From Candidatus Zixiibacteriota bacterium (lineage in GTDB: Bacteria > Zixibacteria > MSB-5A5 > JAABVY01 > JAHJOQ01): a stretch of 45,194 nt of DNA. The stretch covers positions 1 through 45,194 of the forward strand of contig JAGVNY010000160.1 in assembly GCA_020053015.1 (NCBI GenBank), written 5' to 3'. This document shows, piece by piece, positions 15,077 to 35,867 of this stretch; within the stretch, counting starts at the first letter, position 1; every line of letters starts with the position of its first letter. The notes below the pieces were generated by a model. It saw only the letters and a program-made list of their open reading frames with translations, ran no database searches and was not told the DNA's origin. Position numbers and translations under genes: made by a program.

Positions 15077-15691
15077 TCACATTCTCCTTAGAAGCCCTAC
15101 CACGCGACCTGCAACGTAGAACCCCGGAGTACTGTATTCTACGATCAGAGGACCGTATGCGTCGTTCTCAGGTTCAAGCCGAACACAGTCATCCTCAGGA
15201 TAGAATCGCTTCACGGTAGCTTCGTCGCCGAGCACAGCGACAACGATATCACCCGGCTCCGCGTTCTCCTGCTTCCTGACGAGTACGAAATCGCCGTCGC
15301 GAATACCGGCGTTAACCATGCTGTCTCCGACGACCCTTAGCGCAAAGGTCTCGCCGCTCGGAAGGAAGCTCGTGTCGACGGCGATGTTTCCCTCGACATT
15401 CTCTTGGGCAAGCAAGGGTGCCCCCGCTGGGACAGTGCCCACAAGCGGCAAATGCCTTACGGAAGACATGACATCCTCGGCAAGCACTAAACCTCTGGAA
15501 ACAAGCGGGGTCTTCCGTAAGTAGCCCTTCTTGATAAGAGCTTCAAGCAGAGATCGCACGCCGTTGGTCGAGCGAATCGAGAACTTCTCGCCAATTTCAC
15601 GGATCGTTGGTGGCACCCCGCGATCGAGGATCCTCTGCGAAACGAACTCGTAAATCTGGCTCTGACGTTCAGTTAATCTTGGTTTTTGCAT
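15077..15691 (-). CDS. lexA: LexA repressor
   Basis: 204 residues, normal length. The N-terminal winged helix (LTERQSQIYEFV, then GVPPTIREIGEKFSI) binds operators. The self-cleavage site is Ala89-Gly90 (GTVPAGAPL), and the Ser-Lys dyad is Ser124 (VVGDSMVNAGI) and Lys161 (EATVKRFY). RecA filaments trigger self-cleavage and release the SOS genes. It heads a five-gene minus-strand cassette and is divergent from the DUF1573 cluster. It most likely represses its own cassette. Confidence 0.95.
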   Translation of the reverse strand: MQKPRLTERQSQIYEFVSQRILDRGVPPTIREIGEKFSIRSTNGVRSLLEALIKKGYLRKTPLVSRGLVLAEDVMSSVRHLPLVGTVPAGAPLLAQENVEGNIAVDTSFLPSGETFALRVVGDSMVNAGIRDGDFVLVRKQENAEPGDIVVAVLGDEATVKRFYPEDDCVRLEPENDAYGPLIVEYSTPGFYVAGRVVGLLRRM

Positions 15692-16004: not shown

Positions 16005-16751
16005 ATGCGCGTCATCGCTGCTGCAACGCTCTTCACAATACTAGTCATGGGAACGGGGACATCATCTGGACAGCCGGGTGAACCTGCGAAGCAGAGTCGC
16101 TTCAGGAAGGGAGTAGCGGAGTTCCGCGAGTCGGGTTTCGACTTCGGGAAGGTGCCTCAGCAAACAGCTGCCTGCAAGAGATTCCATGTGGTGAACGTCG
16201 GGACAGACACGCTCGAAATCCTCGATGTCAAGACCGGCTGCGGCTGCACCAAGGCCCCAATCTCGAAGAAGCTCATAGGCGCCGGGGACAGCACAGAGAT
16301 CGAGATCATCTTCAGCACCGGCAACAGGACCGGCCCGTACAGCAAGTCCACGAGGGTTGAGACGAGCGATCTACTTAGCAGAGTCGCTAATCTGAAGATA
16401 GCGGCGTACGTTTACCCCCAGAACGTACCTACATCACCGGTGGTCAGCGATCCCAAAGTTCTGGAAACTTCCCGGAGCGATCCAATGGCGAACGTCAAAT
16501 TGAAAAACATAACAACGTCGCCGCTCGGAGTTCGGCTCGCATATTTCGACGAGCAGTTCACCGATGTCTCCTTGTCTGCCAGCACTATCGGTCCGGGCGA
16601 GACTATCACAGCGGCCGTCAAGATCGCGAAGGACCGCCTATCTGCGGGATTCGAAAAATCATTCACGCTGCAGTTTGATGACAAAGACCACTCTCGAATG
16701 ACGATCCCGATAGTGTACGGCGCTGCTGCAGGGACTTCGGCGAAGAAATGA
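16005..16751 (+). CDS. Exported DUF1573 protein, Cys-Gly-Cys version (first of three)
   Basis: 248 residues from ATG 16005, chosen for the GGAG at 15992-15995 and the signal peptide (MRVIAAATLFTILVMGTGTS). Residues 46-135 form a DUF1573 Ig-like domain: FDFGKVPQQTAACKRFHVVN, then VGTDTLEILDVKTGCGCTKA with Cys79 and Cys81, then SKKLIGAGDSTEIEI. A second Ig-like domain follows (PVVSDPKVLETS onward). DUF1573 proteins are exported or surface proteins of unknown function in Bacteroidetes and relatives. The next two genes are paralogs in which the codon for the first Cys of this motif is UGA. The RNA after the Cys codon does not form the stem seen in those two, which makes it a built-in control. Confidence 0.85.
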   Translation: MRVIAAATLFTILVMGTGTSSGQPGEPAKQSRFRKGVAEFRESGFDFGKVPQQTAACKRFHVVNVGTDTLEILDVKTGCGCTKAPISKKLIGAGDSTEIEIIFSTGNRTGPYSKSTRVETSDLLSRVANLKIAAYVYPQNVPTSPVVSDPKVLETSRSDPMANVKLKNITTSPLGVRLAYFDEQFTDVSLSASTIGPGETITAAVKIAKDRLSAGFEKSFTLQFDDKDHSRMTIPIVYGAAAGTSAKK

Positions 16752-16855: not shown

Positions 16856-17659
16856 ATGAAGTCCATCCTGTCGGTCTCGCTCGCCACACTGATGATCACC
16901 GTCGGGGCTGCTTCGGCAGGAACGCCGGTCAAGCCGAAGGATATCGCCACCACCGATGGCGCTTATAGTAAGGGCAGACTGTTTTTCCCCGAGCTGGAGT
17001 TCGATTTCGGGATCGTCCCTCAAGATGCGGCTGTTTCTCATTCCTTCTGGCTGGTTAACAAGGGAACCGACACCCTTGAGATAATCCAGATAAAACCCGG
17101 GTGAGGCTGCACTCAGGCGCCTCTGACCAAGAGGCTCATCGCTGTCGGCGACAGCGCAGAAATTGAGTTGATATATTCCACCGGTCATCACTCCGGGAAG
17201 CAACGGAAGTCGGCCGATGTCGTAACAAGCGACATCACGAAGACAAACGCAAAAGTCACATTGTTTGCGGACATACGTTCATCCGCGGATTCGATCTCTC
17301 CCATGGTGATTGACCCGGCCATACTCCGGATCCAGCGAGACTCCGTCCGGGCCGAGTACAAGGTCAAGCTGACCAATCGTTCTGATGTTCCGCTTACGCC
17401 AAAGCTCATTTGCACTCCGCCGCGAGATTTTGAAATGAGATACGCCCACAAGGCTATCAAGCCGGGCGAGTCGACCGACATTACTATCAGAGTGTCTGAT
17501 CTCTTTGAGGCACAGACCTCGAAAAAGACCTTCACTTTTGAATTCGACGATGCGGCGAGGACGCGCTTTTCGGTCCCGGTTGAAATCGGCACCTTTCAGC
17601 CACCTCAGACCGCGACCGGAGCTCAACCTGCTTCAGGAGGAACTCCGGGCGGACATTAG
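16856..17659 (+). CDS. Exported DUF1573 selenoprotein candidate, U-Gly-Cys version (second of three)
   Basis: 267 residues if the in-frame UGA at 17102-17104 is read as selenocysteine (codon 83). ATG 16856 follows GAGGAAAG and gives a signal peptide (MKSILSVSLATLMITVGAASA); ATG 16826 in the same frame is an alternative. The part before UGA ends FDFGIVPQDAAVSHSFWLVN, then KGTDTLEIIQIKPG. The part after continues GCTQAPLTKRLIAVGDSAEI. Together they align without a gap to the first paralog, with UGA in place of the first Cys of Cys-Gly-Cys. The second Ig-like domain (PMVIDPAILRIQRDSV to PVEIG) is intact and ends at TAG 17659. A stem-loop starts 14 nt after the UGA. Conventional gene finders would report a 3' or 5' fragment. 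A nonsense pseudogene is the main alternative. Confidence 0.75.
17102..17135 (+). promoter_or_regulatory. UGA-Sec codon and SECIS-like stem-loop, second DUF1573 gene
   Basis: UGA at 17102-17104, 14 nt, then stem GCCTCT (17119-17124), loop GACCA (17125-17129), stem AGAGGC (17130-17135). There are 20 nt between UGA and loop, inside the 16-37 nt range used for bacterial SECIS elements. G is the first loop base, as expected for SelB binding. A second hairpin, GCTGTC-GGC-GACAGC, follows at 17141-17155. Confidence 0.65.
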
Positions 17660-17675
17660 TTGTTCGAAGCCTTGG

Positions 17676-17695
17676 AGCCTCGTGCGGTCGAGGCT
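17676..17695 (+). terminator. Stem-loop after the second DUF1573 gene
   Basis: AGCCTCG (17676-17682), loop TGCGGT, CGAGGCT (17689-17695), 16 bp after the stop. There is no T tract behind it, so it may protect the RNA end rather than terminate by itself. Confidence 0.4.
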
Positions 17696-17710
17696 TAGGA
17701 TTCCACATAA

Positions 17711-17742
17711 GGTCTTGACAAAAGACCATTTGAGGCTATGTT
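17711..17742 (+). promoter_or_regulatory. Candidate promoter with overlapping inverted repeat, third DUF1573 gene
   Basis: TTGACA (17715-17720), 16-nt spacer, TATGTT (17737-17742). The inverted repeat GGTCTT-GACAA-AAGACC (17711-17727) covers the -35 box and could be an operator. A 6-bp hairpin in the leader (GACCGC 17770-17775 with GCGGTC 17781-17786) follows before the GTG start. Confidence 0.45.
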
Positions 17743-17805
17743 TGAATACATGTTTGGGCTTTGTCTGACGACCGCCATAAGCGGTCAGGATGGAGATATA
17801 CAAAG

Positions 17806-18705
17806 GTGAAGCGACTACTATTCCTGCTTCCGGTCATTGTCTTAGCTTTCTTGGCGTTCCACGTGATTCAGAATCGGGCGCTTTCGGAAGAGGACAAGGG
17901 TGAGGCCAAAAAGCAGACTATCACCGACAACAAGCCGGCCACTCCCGCGAAGCAGCAGAGTCCCTATGTTAACGGCAAGGCGCTGCTGACAGAGTCATCG
18001 TTCGACTTCGGCTATTGTCCGGTCAGTTCCACGCTCTATCATCCGTTCTACATCAGGAACGTCGGGAGCGATACGCTGGACATAGTCGACATCAAGCCTG
18101 GGTGAGGCTGCACTAAGGCGCCGCTTTCGAAGCGGTTCCTCGCTGTCGGTGACAGCGCAGAAATAGGGATAAGCTTGACAATCAGCGGGCATCCGACGAC
18201 CGTTAACAAGACTCCGTTGGTTAAGACGAGTGACCCGATGGCAACGGAGCTAAGGCTCAAGCTGTCGGCCAAAGCTGTGGCGAATTTCGATTCAACCTCG
18301 CCACTGCAAGTCGCTCCTTCCAAGGTCAGTTTTCCGTCGGATAAGCGGACTGATCGTATAAAGGTAGTGCTTAAGAACGTGTCAGCTGAGCCGGTGCACC
18401 CGACGCTGATTTCGGATCATCCCGGAGTGATACTGGTTGAAATGCCGGATGGCGAGATCATGCCCGGCGCCTCGCAGACAATTACGGTGGCTGTAGACCC
18501 CAACCTAGCGGACCAGAAGAAGAAGACTTCGTTTACGATTGCGATGTCCGACGTGCAGAACACTCACTACACGATTCCCGTCGAAATAGGAGACTATCCC
18601 CCGCCGGTTGTGAAGCCCCCAGCACACACGTCGATTCAGCCGACCAAACAAGATGCGAAACCTTCGATTCGCCCTACTGAAACAAAGAAGGATGGCGGAT
18701 CCTGA
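17806..18705 (+). CDS. Exported or anchored DUF1573 selenoprotein candidate, U-Gly-Cys version (third of three)
   Basis: 299 residues if UGA at 18103-18105 is read as selenocysteine (codon 100). GTG 17806 has GGAG 10 nt upstream and gives a signal or anchor sequence (MKRLLFLLPVIVLAFLAFHV); TTG 17761 in frame lacks a ribosome site. Before the UGA: FDFGYCPVSSTLYHPFYIRN, then VGSDTLDIVDIKPG. After it: GCTKAPLSKRFLAVGDSAEI. A second Ig-like domain (LQVAPSKVSFPSDKRT to PVEIGDY) and a Pro/Thr/Lys-rich tail follow, ending at TGA 18705. The UGA is at the same homologous position as in the second paralog, and the normal end of this gene is also UGA, so UGA is not reassigned throughout. An extra Cys (GYCPV) is unique to this copy. 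The spaced terminator at 18741 closes the cluster. Confidence 0.75.
18103..18136 (+). promoter_or_regulatory. UGA-Sec codon and SECIS-like stem-loop, third DUF1573 gene
   Basis: UGA at 18103-18105, 14 nt, then stem GCCGCT (18120-18125), loop TTCGA (18126-18130), stem AGCGGT (18131-18136, one G-U pair at the base). Spacing and size are the same as in the second gene. Pair 4 has changed from T-A to G-C with both codons synonymous (Pro and Arg). The loop G is at position 4, which departs from the usual G in the first two loop bases. A second hairpin GCTGTC-GGT-GACAGC lies at 18142-18156. Confidence 0.6.
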
Positions 18706-18866: not shown

Positions 18867-19769
18867 GTGAATATCCCGATCAGAGCATGGTTGAATTGGA
18901 CGTGGGGGTTCCTCCGGCACTACGTGGGTGGGCTCTACAACAATCTGGGCGAGCACCATGTCTTTCTGCTTGCCGGCGGCTTGGCCTTTTCGTTCTTCGT
19001 GTGCATCATTCCTCTCACACTTATCGTGTTCGCAATCATCGGCGGTCTATTGGAGAAAGGCTCCCTGACGAGTGAGTTGAATTCCCTCGTCGACAAGGTT
19101 GTGCCTTACCAATCGTATGCATCCCACGTTAAGCGTCTGGTGTCATCGCGCGTAGATGAATTCCGAATCTACAAAGGCGTGGCCGGGTTGATCGGCACGG
19201 CCGGCCTGCTATTCGCCGCAAGCGGTCTTTTCGCAAGCATGCGTACTATCCTGAATACGGTCTATCAGATCAAGAGCAGCCAGTCCATCTACCTGCGCAA
19301 GCTCAAGGACATCGGACTGGTTCTGCTGGTGGTCGTCTACTTCCTGCTTGCGACCACGCTCCTTCCATCTATATCCATCATCCACGACTTCGCCGACAGG
19401 ATTGAGATTCTGAGTCCGTTTGACTTGACAGGAATCGCCGAAGTTGGTATGGAAGCTGCGTCCGTCGTCGTAATCCTCATTGCGTTTCTCGCCCTCTACT
19501 TCCTCGTCCCGCAGCAACGACTGTCGAAGGGGACCGTAATCCTGAGTGCAATGTGGGCTGCGGGACTGTGGAAAGCAGCGGAACAGCTCTTCGGCTACTA
19601 TATCACCGAAATGGCAAATGTGAGAGAAGTCTATGGGGCCTACTCTCTCACGATTGCGGTCGTCTTCTGGATATACTACACTTCAATCGTCTTCATAATC
19701 GGCGCGGAAATAGGACAGCTATACCGAACTCGGCATTCGGCGGGCACAGTAGCACAAAGAATGAGATGA
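18867..19769 (+). CDS. YihY/BrkB-family inner-membrane protein
   Basis: 300 residues with six hydrophobic segments. The pattern HHVFLLAGGLAFSFFVCIIP in the first helix, the loop ASGLFASMRTILNTVY and the late EVYGAYSLTIAVVFWIYYTS with IGAEIGQLYR are typical for the YihY family (formerly called ribonuclease BN or BrkB by mistake). These are thought to be transporters or lipid-handling membrane proteins; the true activity is unsettled. GTG 18867 has GAGGA 4 nt upstream. It begins about 100 bp after the DUF1573 terminator, so it is a separate unit. Confidence 0.9.
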   Translation: MNIPIRAWLNWTWGFLRHYVGGLYNNLGEHHVFLLAGGLAFSFFVCIIPLTLIVFAIIGGLLEKGSLTSELNSLVDKVVPYQSYASHVKRLVSSRVDEFRIYKGVAGLIGTAGLLFAASGLFASMRTILNTVYQIKSSQSIYLRKLKDIGLVLLVVVYFLLATTLLPSISIIHDFADRIEILSPFDLTGIAEVGMEAASVVVILIAFLALYFLVPQQRLSKGTVILSAMWAAGLWKAAEQLFGYYITEMANVREVYGAYSLTIAVVFWIYYTSIVFIIGAEIGQLYRTRHSAGTVAQRMR

Positions 19770-21579: not shown

Positions 21580-24300
21580 CTATTTGATCAGCGCCATCTT
21601 ACGGATGCTGGAGCTTCTGTCGCTGGAAACTCTATAGAAGTAAATACCTGAGGGATTGTCGGTTGCGTCGTACACGACATGGTGCCAACCAGCGGGAAGA
21701 CTCCGCTGACGTTCAGTATAAACAACCTGGCCGAGCAGATTCAGCACCTCGAGCGATACATCCGAATGTGTCGGGATGAAGAAAGAAATCGTGGTGCTCG
21801 GATTGAACGGATTCGGGTAGTTCTGCGCAAGTTCGAACGACCCGGGAAGCAGATCGTCGTTCTGCTCATCCGCAGAAGTTGCGGAGTAGTTGTACGAGCC
21901 CACGAGAATGTCATTCCCTGCCTCTTCTCTGCTGCCCATCCAAATCGCAGTACGCACCCTGCCGCTCAACGCGACACCGCTGTGCTGCTGTTCCGAATGT
22001 ATCGCGTCCGAAACGGATTGCACTCCGTGTATCCCGGGAATGGCGCAGTAGATCCGTGAGTGGCCGGACCTGCTGTCAGACCAAGTCACTCCGCAGAAGC
22101 CTTCGTGATCCACCGAGACGGAAACGTCACGGTATTCAAGAGTCGAATTGTCGGATACCGCGATCTCGCCCCCGAGGGGTACACCTGTCGATGAGAATCT
22201 CCTCGCAATGACTGCGTTTTCACCCGCATCCGTTGTTTGAATCACAGCTATCACAAATGCCGAATGCTTCTGATCATAGTCAACGTCGAGCGAAGAGTGA
22301 GTGATGTCAGGACTGTCACAAGGGTACATAGTGTTAGCGCCGAAAGGAGTTCCTGAACTCGAGTAGAGCTGGTAGAACGCGATGTCTCGGGGGCCAACCT
22401 CGGCCAACCAAGCCACGACGAACGATCCGTCCGCAGCCATCCCGACGCGCGGAGATGCGCAGACACCCATCGACGAAGACGTATTGACTCGATTGTTGCT
22501 TCCTGTCATGTTGCCATCAGCAGAGATCAACTGCACGTAGATGTCGCCAGCGCCATTGCGAAAATCCTGCCATGTTACAGCAGACTGGCCGGAGATTGAG
22601 TATGCAGCATCCGGCGAGTCCTTCATCGCTCCGGAAACATCGTCACTTATGCAGACCTCATTGTCATCTGGAGCAGAGAATCGGTAACGACGGGCAAAGA
22701 CTCTTTGTCCAGCAGACTCTTCTGTCTGCCGAGCATCAACCCATGCGACAATGGCCTGACCTTCGCCGTTGGAGCCGATCGTCGGCTCGCACTGCAGCGC
22801 TCGACCGATGTCCTGGTTCACCTTGAGATTATCGCCGATCAGGATGCCATCCTCCGAGACGAACTGCACGAAGACGTCTCCCTCATCGAATCGACGATCT
22901 TCCCATGCCGCGCCGAACACACCGTGGTCTGTCAGCGCAATCTGAGGCTCGATTTGCTGGGCGCCCGTTGCCGGTGACGCAACGCATTTCTCTCCACCCT
23001 CCGGCAGTCCTGAGGAATCGAGAAATCGGATGGCAACATCTGCCTCACCCGATCGCAAGTCTGTCCAGACAGTAACGGCGCCGTCATCGCTGGCGCAATC
23101 TATCCGTGGGCTGAATCTGTCGCCCGCGATCCCTGCTGAGGACACTTGCGTGTTAGAGCCTGAGCGAACTCCGGATGATGTCAGAGCTGATGTAATAATG
23201 CTGGCGAATTCGCTATGGCTTGCCCATGCCGCGCGAACCGTGCCGTTTGACGATGCATCCGCTGCAATATCCCAGCATATCTGATTCGGGTCATCGCACA
23301 TCGATATGTTTGAGCCGATCTTAATCCCTGTATAATCCACCCTCTGGGCGAACACGCGTTGTCCGTTGTTCCTGGTGTCGAGCCAGAACGCGATGAAGCC
23401 TGTCCCTGCGAGATGCGCCGCAGCCGCAGAGAATTGGTCAGCAGAGCTGTAGATTGCATCCGGAAGCGCAATCAATCCTGATCGCGGACTACCGTCTATC
23501 GCATATATCCTCATGAGCACACCGGCTCCGACTGCCGAGATCGCATCCCATGATACCGCAAATCCGTGAGAACCGGCAGATGCTAATCGAGGCGCCCAGA
23601 ATGCGGTCTCTGGTGACGAATTGCTGAGTTGGAAATTGACACCGACTGGACTTAGCGTCGGGCCAAGGAGTTGACAGAATGCATTGACGCCGTCGCGAGA
23701 GTCTTCCCAGACAACAGCCGCACCTCCACCTGAGAGCCAGACGACATCCGGAAGGTTGCAGTGGTTATCTTCAGTATCATCGTTTATGGTCACGGGATAT
23801 GTAGCTGGGTTGAGGTCATTGTCGAATGCCTGGGCGTGTATGCTGCCATCTGCGCCGACCCAAACAAGAATCACTCTTCCAGCGCTGTCTACATCGCATG
23901 ACGGCATTCTCTCATCGCTGAAACTTCCGTCATTCACCAGCTTTGTTTCCGACGCTATCGGATCGCCGAGCGCCGAAAACCGCTGCCCGAATATGCCGAA
24001 ATCGCCGTTGCGGTCATCTTCCCACACAACTGCAACTGAGCCATCCGGAAAGACAGCCAAGTCCGCGAATCTCTGCTCGAAGGTCTCCGGACTATCATCA
24101 TCATTAAGTTGGATATCTCCCGACAGCGACAAGCCCGATTCGAGATGAGCAGCATTGGGATTGAGTCTTTCGCTTCTAATCGAGCTGGTTCGCACAGCGC
24201 ATCTCGCGTGTCTCTCTTTGTATTCGTCGAGTCGGTTAGATGCAACCGCTTGCGAACACATTAGCAGAATGACCGGGACATTGAATAGAAGTCGTTTCAT
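21580..24300 (-). CDS. Large secreted beta-propeller protein with type IX-like sorting domain
   Basis: 906 residues from ATG 24300 (signal peptide MKRLLFNVPVILLMCSQAVA); an in-frame extension to 24333 exists. The body is built of many repeats of about 50-55 residues with the forms AVVWEDDRNGDFGIFGQRFS, AAVVWEDSRDGVNAFCQL and AVTWQDFRNGAGDIYVQLIS, probably one or more beta-propellers. The last 85 residues are a FlgD-like/Por sorting domain: FELAQNYPNPFNPSTTISFF to GIYFYRVSSD and ending MALIK. That domain directs outer-membrane passage through the type IX system in Bacteroidetes. No enzymatic motif was seen. It lies 164 bp upstream of the FG-GAP gene on the same strand and the two may be expressed together. 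Confidence 0.85.
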   Translation of the reverse strand: MKRLLFNVPVILLMCSQAVASNRLDEYKERHARCAVRTSSIRSERLNPNAAHLESGLSLSGDIQLNDDDSPETFEQRFADLAVFPDGSVAVVWEDDRNGDFGIFGQRFSALGDPIASETKLVNDGSFSDERMPSCDVDSAGRVILVWVGADGSIHAQAFDNDLNPATYPVTINDDTEDNHCNLPDVVWLSGGGAAVVWEDSRDGVNAFCQLLGPTLSPVGVNFQLSNSSPETAFWAPRLASAGSHGFAVSWDAISAVGAGVLMRIYAIDGSPRSGLIALPDAIYSSADQFSAAAAHLAGTGFIAFWLDTRNNGQRVFAQRVDYTGIKIGSNISMCDDPNQICWDIAADASSNGTVRAAWASHSEFASIITSALTSSGVRSGSNTQVSSAGIAGDRFSPRIDCASDDGAVTVWTDLRSGEADVAIRFLDSSGLPEGGEKCVASPATGAQQIEPQIALTDHGVFGAAWEDRRFDEGDVFVQFVSEDGILIGDNLKVNQDIGRALQCEPTIGSNGEGQAIVAWVDARQTEESAGQRVFARRYRFSAPDDNEVCISDDVSGAMKDSPDAAYSISGQSAVTWQDFRNGAGDIYVQLISADGNMTGSNNRVNTSSSMGVCASPRVGMAADGSFVVAWLAEVGPRDIAFYQLYSSSGTPFGANTMYPCDSPDITHSSLDVDYDQKHSAFVIAVIQTTDAGENAVIARRFSSTGVPLGGEIAVSDNSTLEYRDVSVSVDHEGFCGVTWSDSRSGHSRIYCAIPGIHGVQSVSDAIHSEQQHSGVALSGRVRTAIWMGSREEAGNDILVGSYNYSATSADEQNDDLLPGSFELAQNYPNPFNPSTTISFFIPTHSDVSLEVLNLLGQVVYTERQRSLPAGWHHVVYDATDNPSGIYFYRVSSDRSSSIRKMALIK

Positions 24301-24666
24301 ACACACCACCGCACTTTGTTCACACTTTTGCAAACCGCATGCCGCGACGAAACAATCGATTAGTCGAATGCTCCTGTCGCGGCTTGGCCGTCAGGCGAAT
24401 GATGGGAGATCGACAGCGTTGTCCGCGAAGCAGTAAGCCCCTGTGCAGTTTCTGAGCGTTGGTCTTTGCTCGAGTTGTTCAGATTCCGAGCAGTGTGGGC
24501 GTCCGACGCCGATCACAAATCCTGCAACTCTCTGCAACCTTGTGCGATTGCTGCCGTAATCGCTCTTGGAGCGAGCTGACATGCGAAGGTCGGGTGTCGG
24601 GAACTCAATCTGAGGTGCAGGTTCCCGCCATCCTACTGCCGACCCGATTCGAAGCAGGAGGAGACG
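24301..24666. other. Divergent intergenic region
   Basis: 366 bp between the divergent sorting-domain and DUF5916 genes. It should carry promoters for both. Apart from the AGGAGGAG ribosome site near 24656 for the DUF5916 gene I see no clear element. Confidence 0.5.
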
Positions 24667-35244: not shown

Positions 35245-35472
35245 TTACGGTCGGGATCGAATCGAAAGCATCAACTTGGCTCTCTCCAACTCATGTGGAT
35301 AGAGGTTTGACGGCACTGCGGCCCTCCCAAACTTGCTGTACACCGTATGCCGGGCACATTGTGCAAAGTCGCCTTTACAGTATCGGGCTTTGTATGATTC
35401 AGTCGCATCCCCCGCGCCCTGCATCTTGTCATTGAAGAATGGACACGTCTTTAGAACCTCGCATTCCGCCAT
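35245..35472 (-). CDS. Small four-cysteine conserved protein
   Basis: 75 residues with Cys4, Cys10, Cys32 and Cys39: AECEVLKTCPFFNDKMQ, then YKARYCKGDFAQCARHTVYS, then AAVPSNLYPHELERAKLML. The pattern C-P-F-F-N-D-K-M and Y-C-x-G-D-x-x-x-C-A-R is one I recall from small hypothetical proteins in many delta-proteobacterial and FCB genomes. Four Cys in two pairs suggest a metal or Fe-S site. It stands alone upstream of the sigma-54 regulator. Confidence 0.65.
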   Translation of the reverse strand: MAECEVLKTCPFFNDKMQGAGDATESYKARYCKGDFAQCARHTVYSKFGRAAVPSNLYPHELERAKLMLSIRSRP

Positions 35473-35867
35473 TGAATTCCCCTTCGTCCTGTTCGCGGTC
35501 TCCCGCGTTTGTTTTATCGGCGGGCATGTCGCAGAATGAACGATTAGAGGCTGAAGAGCGTTGCGTTATGCAAAGATTGCGCGAAAGTCGAGCAGAATCA
35601 ATCTGGATTCGATGGGTAGATTTTTTGTTGACTGGCGGTGGGTTGGATCGTAGGCTGTTTATTGGTTGGTTGTCTCTACTAAGTGTCGAGGGAACAAACC
35701 AGCCTATTCGACGTAGGAGTCGAGCAGTACGGAGTGAACTCAGGGAGTGACGGATTCAAGAAAGTAAAAGTCGACCCGATAATACATATTAAACCGGGTA
35801 TGAAGTCTTGAGATCAGGGACTCCGTGTAGATGTTTGAGATTGAACCTATTTGTCAAGGAGCTTAGC
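35473..35867. other. Intergenic region
   Basis: 395 bp divergent spacer. Short plus-strand frames here have no features. TTGACT near 35629 and an A/T-rich block (ATAATACATATTAAA near 35780) are possible promoter parts for the DUF2582 gene. Confidence 0.4.

Follow-up and report, generated by a model that had tools for sequence, protein, structure and literature searches.

Tandem DUF1573 genes with in-frame UGA codons

The window, which is the whole stretch of 45,194 nucleotides that was analysed, comes from a draft genome of a Candidatus Zixiibacteriota bacterium and contains three adjoining DUF1573 genes (Table 1). Gene 1 has the motif K-T-G-C-G-C-T-K-A-P, its first Cys being encoded by a TGC codon at 16239-16241. 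Genes 2 and 3 each contain a single in-frame UGA, which in both stands exactly where the C-G-C motif of DUF1573 has its first Cys codon, and gene 3 is terminated by an ordinary TGA stop. Counting from the GTG at 17806, the predicted selenocysteine (Sec) of gene 3 is residue 100.

An initial annotation of this DNA had described tandem DUF1573 genes with UGA at the first motif Cys and with frames that remain open and homologous past that codon. The sequence reads as claimed on the first point. On the second, the PF07610 profile matches genes 1, 2 and 3 at 76.2, 75.4 and 66.0 bits when the UGA is read through, against a cut-off of 26.1, and the downstream frame is conserved.

A scan of the window for interrupted frames returned five further cases besides genes 2 and 3, of which the one at 35295-35750 was compared with Pfam and gave no match. 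Gene 2 has no matches among plasmid records, and the sole match to it in a search of genome contigs is one Bacteroidales locus.

Table 1. Features of the DUF1573 locus in the window
Feature	Position	Strand	Remarks
lexA, divergent neighbour	15077..15691	-	Adjoins the DUF1573 set
Gene 1, DUF1573 Cys-Gly-Cys paralogue	16005..16751	+	ATG start at 16005 picked by eye
Gene 2, predicted DUF1573 selenoprotein, 267 aa	16856..17659	+	Hydrophobic N-terminus, then two beta-sandwich domains
Gene 2 predicted Sec codon UGA (U-G-C)	17102..17104	+	Sec 83; K-P-G-U-G-C-T-Q-A-P
Gene 2 putative bacterial SECIS hairpin	17119..17135	+	Stem GCCUCU/AGAGGC, loop GACCA; alone not significant
Gene 3, predicted DUF1573 selenoprotein	17806..18705	+	Start probably the GTG at 17806, picked by eye
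Gene 3 predicted Sec codon UGA (U-G-C)	18103..18105	+	K-P-G-U-G-C-T-K-A-P
Gene 3 putative bacterial SECIS hairpin	18121..18135	+	Stem CCGCUU/AAGCGG
BrkB-family (PF03631) membrane protein gene	18867..19769	+	Downstream; also in two same-family genomes

Selenocysteine machinery in the host genome

The host genome sequence is a draft of 3.13 Mb in 263 contigs, 88% complete. The machinery on which the selenoprotein reading depends, tRNA-Sec, selA, selB and selD, was found in it in full. The tRNA-Sec scores 74.2 bits against a gathering score of 47 and is called as tRNA-SeC by ARAGORN, with anticodon tca. Of 14 control genomes, 5 likewise have a match above the threshold of this tRNA family, and it is therefore the high score together with the anticodon that counts. 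The selB match is 295 bits (cut-off 242) and the protein has SelB winged-helix domains; selA and selD score 493.7 and 403.3 bits. On contig C86, selB, selA and tRNA-Sec are grouped in about 5.3 kb.

It might be argued that a code change or a suppressor tRNA lets the UGA specify Cys or some other standard residue, and the Cys paralogue shows that Cys is tolerated at the site. However, in a set of 25 window ORFs picked by hand UGA is the commonest stop, ending 11 of them. With the full Sec machinery present, and with a hairpin found in the UGA genes as a group and not in the Cys genes (see below), such a reading is very improbable.

The selD gene (L024:205-2529, on host contig C108) is fused behind an N-terminal class-V aminotransferase domain, which by its family could presumably be of the cysteine-desulfurase or selenocysteine-lyase type, feeding selenium to SelD. 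About 1.9 kb from the tRNA-Sec is a bacillithiol-synthesis-type gene with BshC domains (L022:11882-13576), which suggests a low-molecular-weight thiol in the host.

Conservation of the UGA codon in relatives

The listing for the order is complete and comprises 41 DUF1573 matches in eight genomes, 32 of them over the cut-off. An in-frame stop is present in 16 of these 32 domains. Each has one TGA, with no TAA or TAG, and in all 16 the TGA is at the codon of the first motif Cys (Cys1). The nine matches below the cut-off are stop-free.

Across the phylum, at least 29 rows among the matches listed have an in-frame stop (counted by eye), and all of these stops are TGA. In the phylum loci that were fetched, 59 of 59 non-redundant in-domain UGAs fall in the Cys1 column, and 57 domains have Cys there. 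A motif pattern was used to obtain 24 fetched loci (L105-L128) as well as L059-L088. The phylum loci were thus partly picked by a TGA motif and are therefore biased; the order-wide count is the unbiased one. Within L059-L088, the pattern lies inside a DUF1573 domain in 9 of 18 TGA cases and in none of the 12 TGG, TAA or TAG cases. The second batch of 20 loci included one, L111, without a DUF1573 domain. Altogether, DUF1573 genes with UGA were seen in 53 genomes, from at least 12 of the 19 phylum families that the analysis covered. Conservation in relatives, on which the proposal of the initial annotation also depended, is thus found at the same codon both in the order and in the wider phylum.

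These observations bear on the simplest alternative, that the UGA codons arose from TGC or TGT by sequencing error or by nonsense mutation in decaying duplicates. The draft is fragmented, as described above, and TGA is one base away from both TGC and TGT. However, UGA occupies the same codon in 53 genomes, the downstream frames are open and conserved, and every one of the order-wide in-frame stops is a TGA in a single column. Because the site is conserved, sequencing error is very unlikely, and error and decay together have next to no probability as an explanation.

The selA gene is above its cut-off in 116 of the 132 phylum genomes. Among the 53 genomes with observed UGA-containing DUF1573 genes, it is so in 48. 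Of the other five, G041 and G122 have a selA fragment and G011, G088 and G097 have weak matches only. In G097, which is in 540 contigs and has four UGA genes, neither a clear selA nor a clear tRNA-Sec was found. Genome G095 (79% complete) has a single Cys copy of DUF1573 and lacks a match above the cut-off for either selA or tRNA-Sec.

A second subfamily of UGA-containing DUF1573 proteins was identified, referred to here as AAV-type from its sequence GS-UGCTAAVLT (for example in L036, L041 and L047). These proteins are about 360-415 aa where complete. In a tree of DUF1573 domains they form one clade of 16 rows, all of which have UGA in the loci seen. One of the four UGA genes of G097 is of this type.

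Exchange of selenocysteine and cysteine

Genomes G096 and G097, from other genera of the same family as the host, have the arrangement lexA-Sec-Sec-Sec-brkB, in which the position of gene 1 is occupied by a UGA gene. Because gene 1 of the window matches this UGA gene in position and motif, it probably represents a replacement of Sec by Cys, or the reverse. In G091, G092 and G093 a UGA copy is followed by a Cys copy, and G094 has a UGA copy.

The tree was made by a quick method from 116 domains with Cys1 masked, in a sample that is enriched in UGA loci and leaves out the triplet loci of G096 and G097. It contains 17 changes between Sec and Cys, of which at least eight are forced by starred branches. 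The three window genes group together in this tree, but outside any starred group.

The arrangement of the copies was assessed in 40 loci with a UGA copy (L089-L128 without L111, plus the window). In 25 of these a Cys copy is found less than 2 kb from a UGA copy, upstream in 24 and downstream in 4, and two UGA copies lie within 2 kb of each other in three. Such proximity could reflect a selenium switch, in which the UGA genes would yield products ending before U-G-C when selenium is low and full-length products when it is available, with the Cys copy covering the shortage. This is a distinctly improbable explanation, as in two genomes of the same family the set consists of three UGA copies without any Cys copy, and no regulatory RNA family was matched in the window.

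A hairpin 3' of the UGA

In genes 2 and 3 a hairpin can be drawn 3' of the UGA (Table 1). Compared with dinucleotide shuffles, the two are ordinary for their composition (z -1.23 for gene 2 and z -1.06 for gene 3); in gene 1 the hairpin is absent (z +1.78). Compared with synonymous codons, p is 0.085 for gene 2 and 0.015 for gene 3, so that only gene 3 is significant. An Rfam scan of the window gave no family at its gathering score, and hence no match to a known SECIS model.

The UGA genes as a group fold more strongly than the Cys genes. On bases 12-39, counted from the start of the codon, the mean fold is -8.0 kcal/mol in 60 UGA genes versus -2.4 kcal/mol in 57 Cys genes of equal G+C. Against synonymous codons (bases 3-45), the mean z is -1.22 for the UGA genes and +0.07 for the Cys genes. 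A p-value of 0.05 or below is reached by 16 of the 60 and 4 of the 57, respectively, although these p-values are a guide only because the sequences are related.

The structure is clearest in the K-A-P-L type. Across its 36 UGA genes 67.3% of the cells of a proposed nine-pair structure are paired, versus 31-45% in slid versions, in a register that was chosen on the tested sequences themselves. A covariation test used five measures, two of them without excess over shuffles. The number of double-changed cells is 38 versus 20.4 in shuffled alignments, a value reached by none of 500 shuffles; pairs with a double change (4 versus 4.0) and further pair types (12 versus 12.3) show no excess. When the same structure is imposed on 38 Cys genes, 32.2% is paired, which is below their own shuffles.

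In subfamilies other than K-A-P-L the hairpins are weak or shifted. The register first guessed for the AAV-type subfamily was rejected, with 22.7% paired versus 64.1% when slid by -2, and RNAalifold alone gives only a weak structure there. At the level of the group, the comparisons support the presence in UGA genes of a hairpin that is absent from their Cys paralogues, as would be expected of a bacterial SECIS; for the window genes taken alone the signal is weak.

The adjacent Sec and Cys copies, the repeated switching on the tree and the absence of the hairpin with Cys together make these loci a natural experiment.

Relationship to known selenoprotein families

A DUF1573 protein (pfam07610) with the motif UGC is included in published selenoprotein tables (PMC9312934, PMC13188914), which in the portions seen cite Zhang and Gladyshev 2007, on a symbiont of Olavius algarvensis. 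The family OS_HP2 is likewise given as pfam07610 with UxC in the portion of PMC2398784 consulted, which sets 2 Sec sequences against 354 with Cys. The window genes share with the DUF1573 entry of the tables the Pfam domain and Sec at the first position of C-G-C. They differ in forming a tandem set with a Cys paralogue, whereas the tables, in the parts seen, give one example protein each.

There is also an NCBIfam profile, NF041425, named 'OS_HP2 family (seleno)protein'. It matches all three window genes (73.3, 63.5 and 62.6 bits), but does not reach its cut-off of 100. Because their scores of 62.6-73.3 are below this cut-off, the window proteins are a diverged branch of the OS_HP2 family. A search of the phylum with NF041425 gave a match in 130 of 132 genomes at E 0.001, none of them over the cut-off. 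The best scores are those of the AAV-type subfamily, and in hmmscan the AAV-type protein of L036 just passes, with 100.4 bits.

The initial annotation had proposed a probable new selenoprotein family. The selenoprotein part is strongly supported by the machinery, the restriction of UGA to Cys1, the exchange of Cys and Sec and the hairpin of the group. The claim of novelty is not, as DUF1573/OS_HP2 proteins are already listed and NF041425 exists. On this sequence evidence, genes 2 and 3 very probably encode real selenoproteins of the DUF1573/OS_HP2 family. In all likelihood they are new, well-supported members of a known selenoprotein family, in a tandem arrangement that is met again in many of the phylum's lineages. 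The sections consulted of the published DUF1573 and OS_HP2 accounts do not describe tandem Sec/Cys arrays, the phylum of the window or repeated switching between Sec and Cys. An annotation in which all UGA are read as stop would truncate these proteins at the active-site codon.

Fold, motif and predicted function

The structure modelled for gene 2 is made up of two beta-sandwich domains, with a mean pLDDT of 87. The window proteins match the HYDIN-type profile PF22544, and a Foldseek search with the gene 2 model returned HYDIN/ASH-type structures and, lower down, PapD-like ones. The TM-scores are about 0.3, with a large rmsd over the two-domain chain. Since these whole-chain scores are low, Foldseek backs the fold class and no more; it is this class, together with the profile match, that the window proteins have in common with HYDIN/ASH-type and PapD-like Ig domains. 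The U/C-x-C motif is not known to be a feature of the HYDIN/ASH or PapD-like families.

In the gene 2 model, U83 is preceded by a strand at 74-81, and His 62 is on the earlier strand 59-68. If the two strands pair as in a usual beta hairpin, His 62 should be near U83. A His at this position, -21 relative to U, is present in all 59 UGA domains and in 50 of the 57 that have Cys. In gene 1 of the window the residue is Lys. G-C-T follows the U directly in all 59 UGA domains.

The N-termini of genes 1-3 are hydrophobic as judged by eye and, read from the N-termini alone, the products of genes 2 and 3 look exported. Elsewhere in the window, at 21580-24333, a 917-aa protein has a Por secretion-type C-terminal sorting domain, which suggests a type IX-like export route.

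A mechanism can be proposed from these features. The UGA at the first Cys codon of C-G-C would be decoded as Sec by tRNA-Sec, SelA, SelB and SelD, with the hairpin that starts some 15 bases beyond the UGA as the putative SECIS. The products would be Ig/ASH-like two-domain proteins, apparently exported, in which U-G-C and the invariant His on the presumed neighbouring strand would most likely form a selenol/thiol redox centre in the cell envelope, with a U-C selenenylsulfide. The adjoining Cys paralogue may serve as its partner, or be a version of lower reactivity. Such a redox role in the envelope, with the selenol/thiol pair carried on an Ig/ASH-like domain, is the favoured function, and its chances are judged to be about even.

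It is also conceivable that these selenoproteins use U-G-C and the His to bind or hand on a metal rather than for redox chemistry. The U-x-C and His that are invariant in UGA copies fit metal binding equally well. The published Sec families, in the part of the lists seen, include a mercuric transport protein and a Cu/Zn efflux transporter, and a Bacteroides DUF1573 gene appears in a table of iron-dependent genes in the part consulted of an account of iron in Bacteroidetes (PMC10434189). Against this, no metal-transport gene is present among the neighbour proteins scanned, and the metal reading is considered unlikely. If the window proteins are indeed in the envelope, they would offer a tractable case of a U-x-C protein lacking the thioredoxin fold, in which to ask why Sec is retained there.

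Gene neighbourhood

Depending on the lineage, the neighbours scanned are lexA, BrkB, FAD-linked oxidase, ABC transporter and GWxTD genes; among these no functional partner was found and none points to redox. A divergent lexA gene is beside UGA-containing DUF1573 sets in at least 13 other genomes of the phylum, from several families, a count that is a lower bound because flanks are short in many fetched loci. It can be suggested, tentatively and with the odds against it, that there is a phylum-wide envelope Sec/Cys redox relay of Ig-like DUF1573 proteins without a thioredoxin fold, whose Sec and Cys genes stand in tandem, with runs of as many as three Sec genes, and are retained next to lexA in several families. 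In family f7, many loci are flanked on one side by a FAD-linked oxidase gene or by ABC transporter genes, and on the other by genes for GWxTD-domain proteins.
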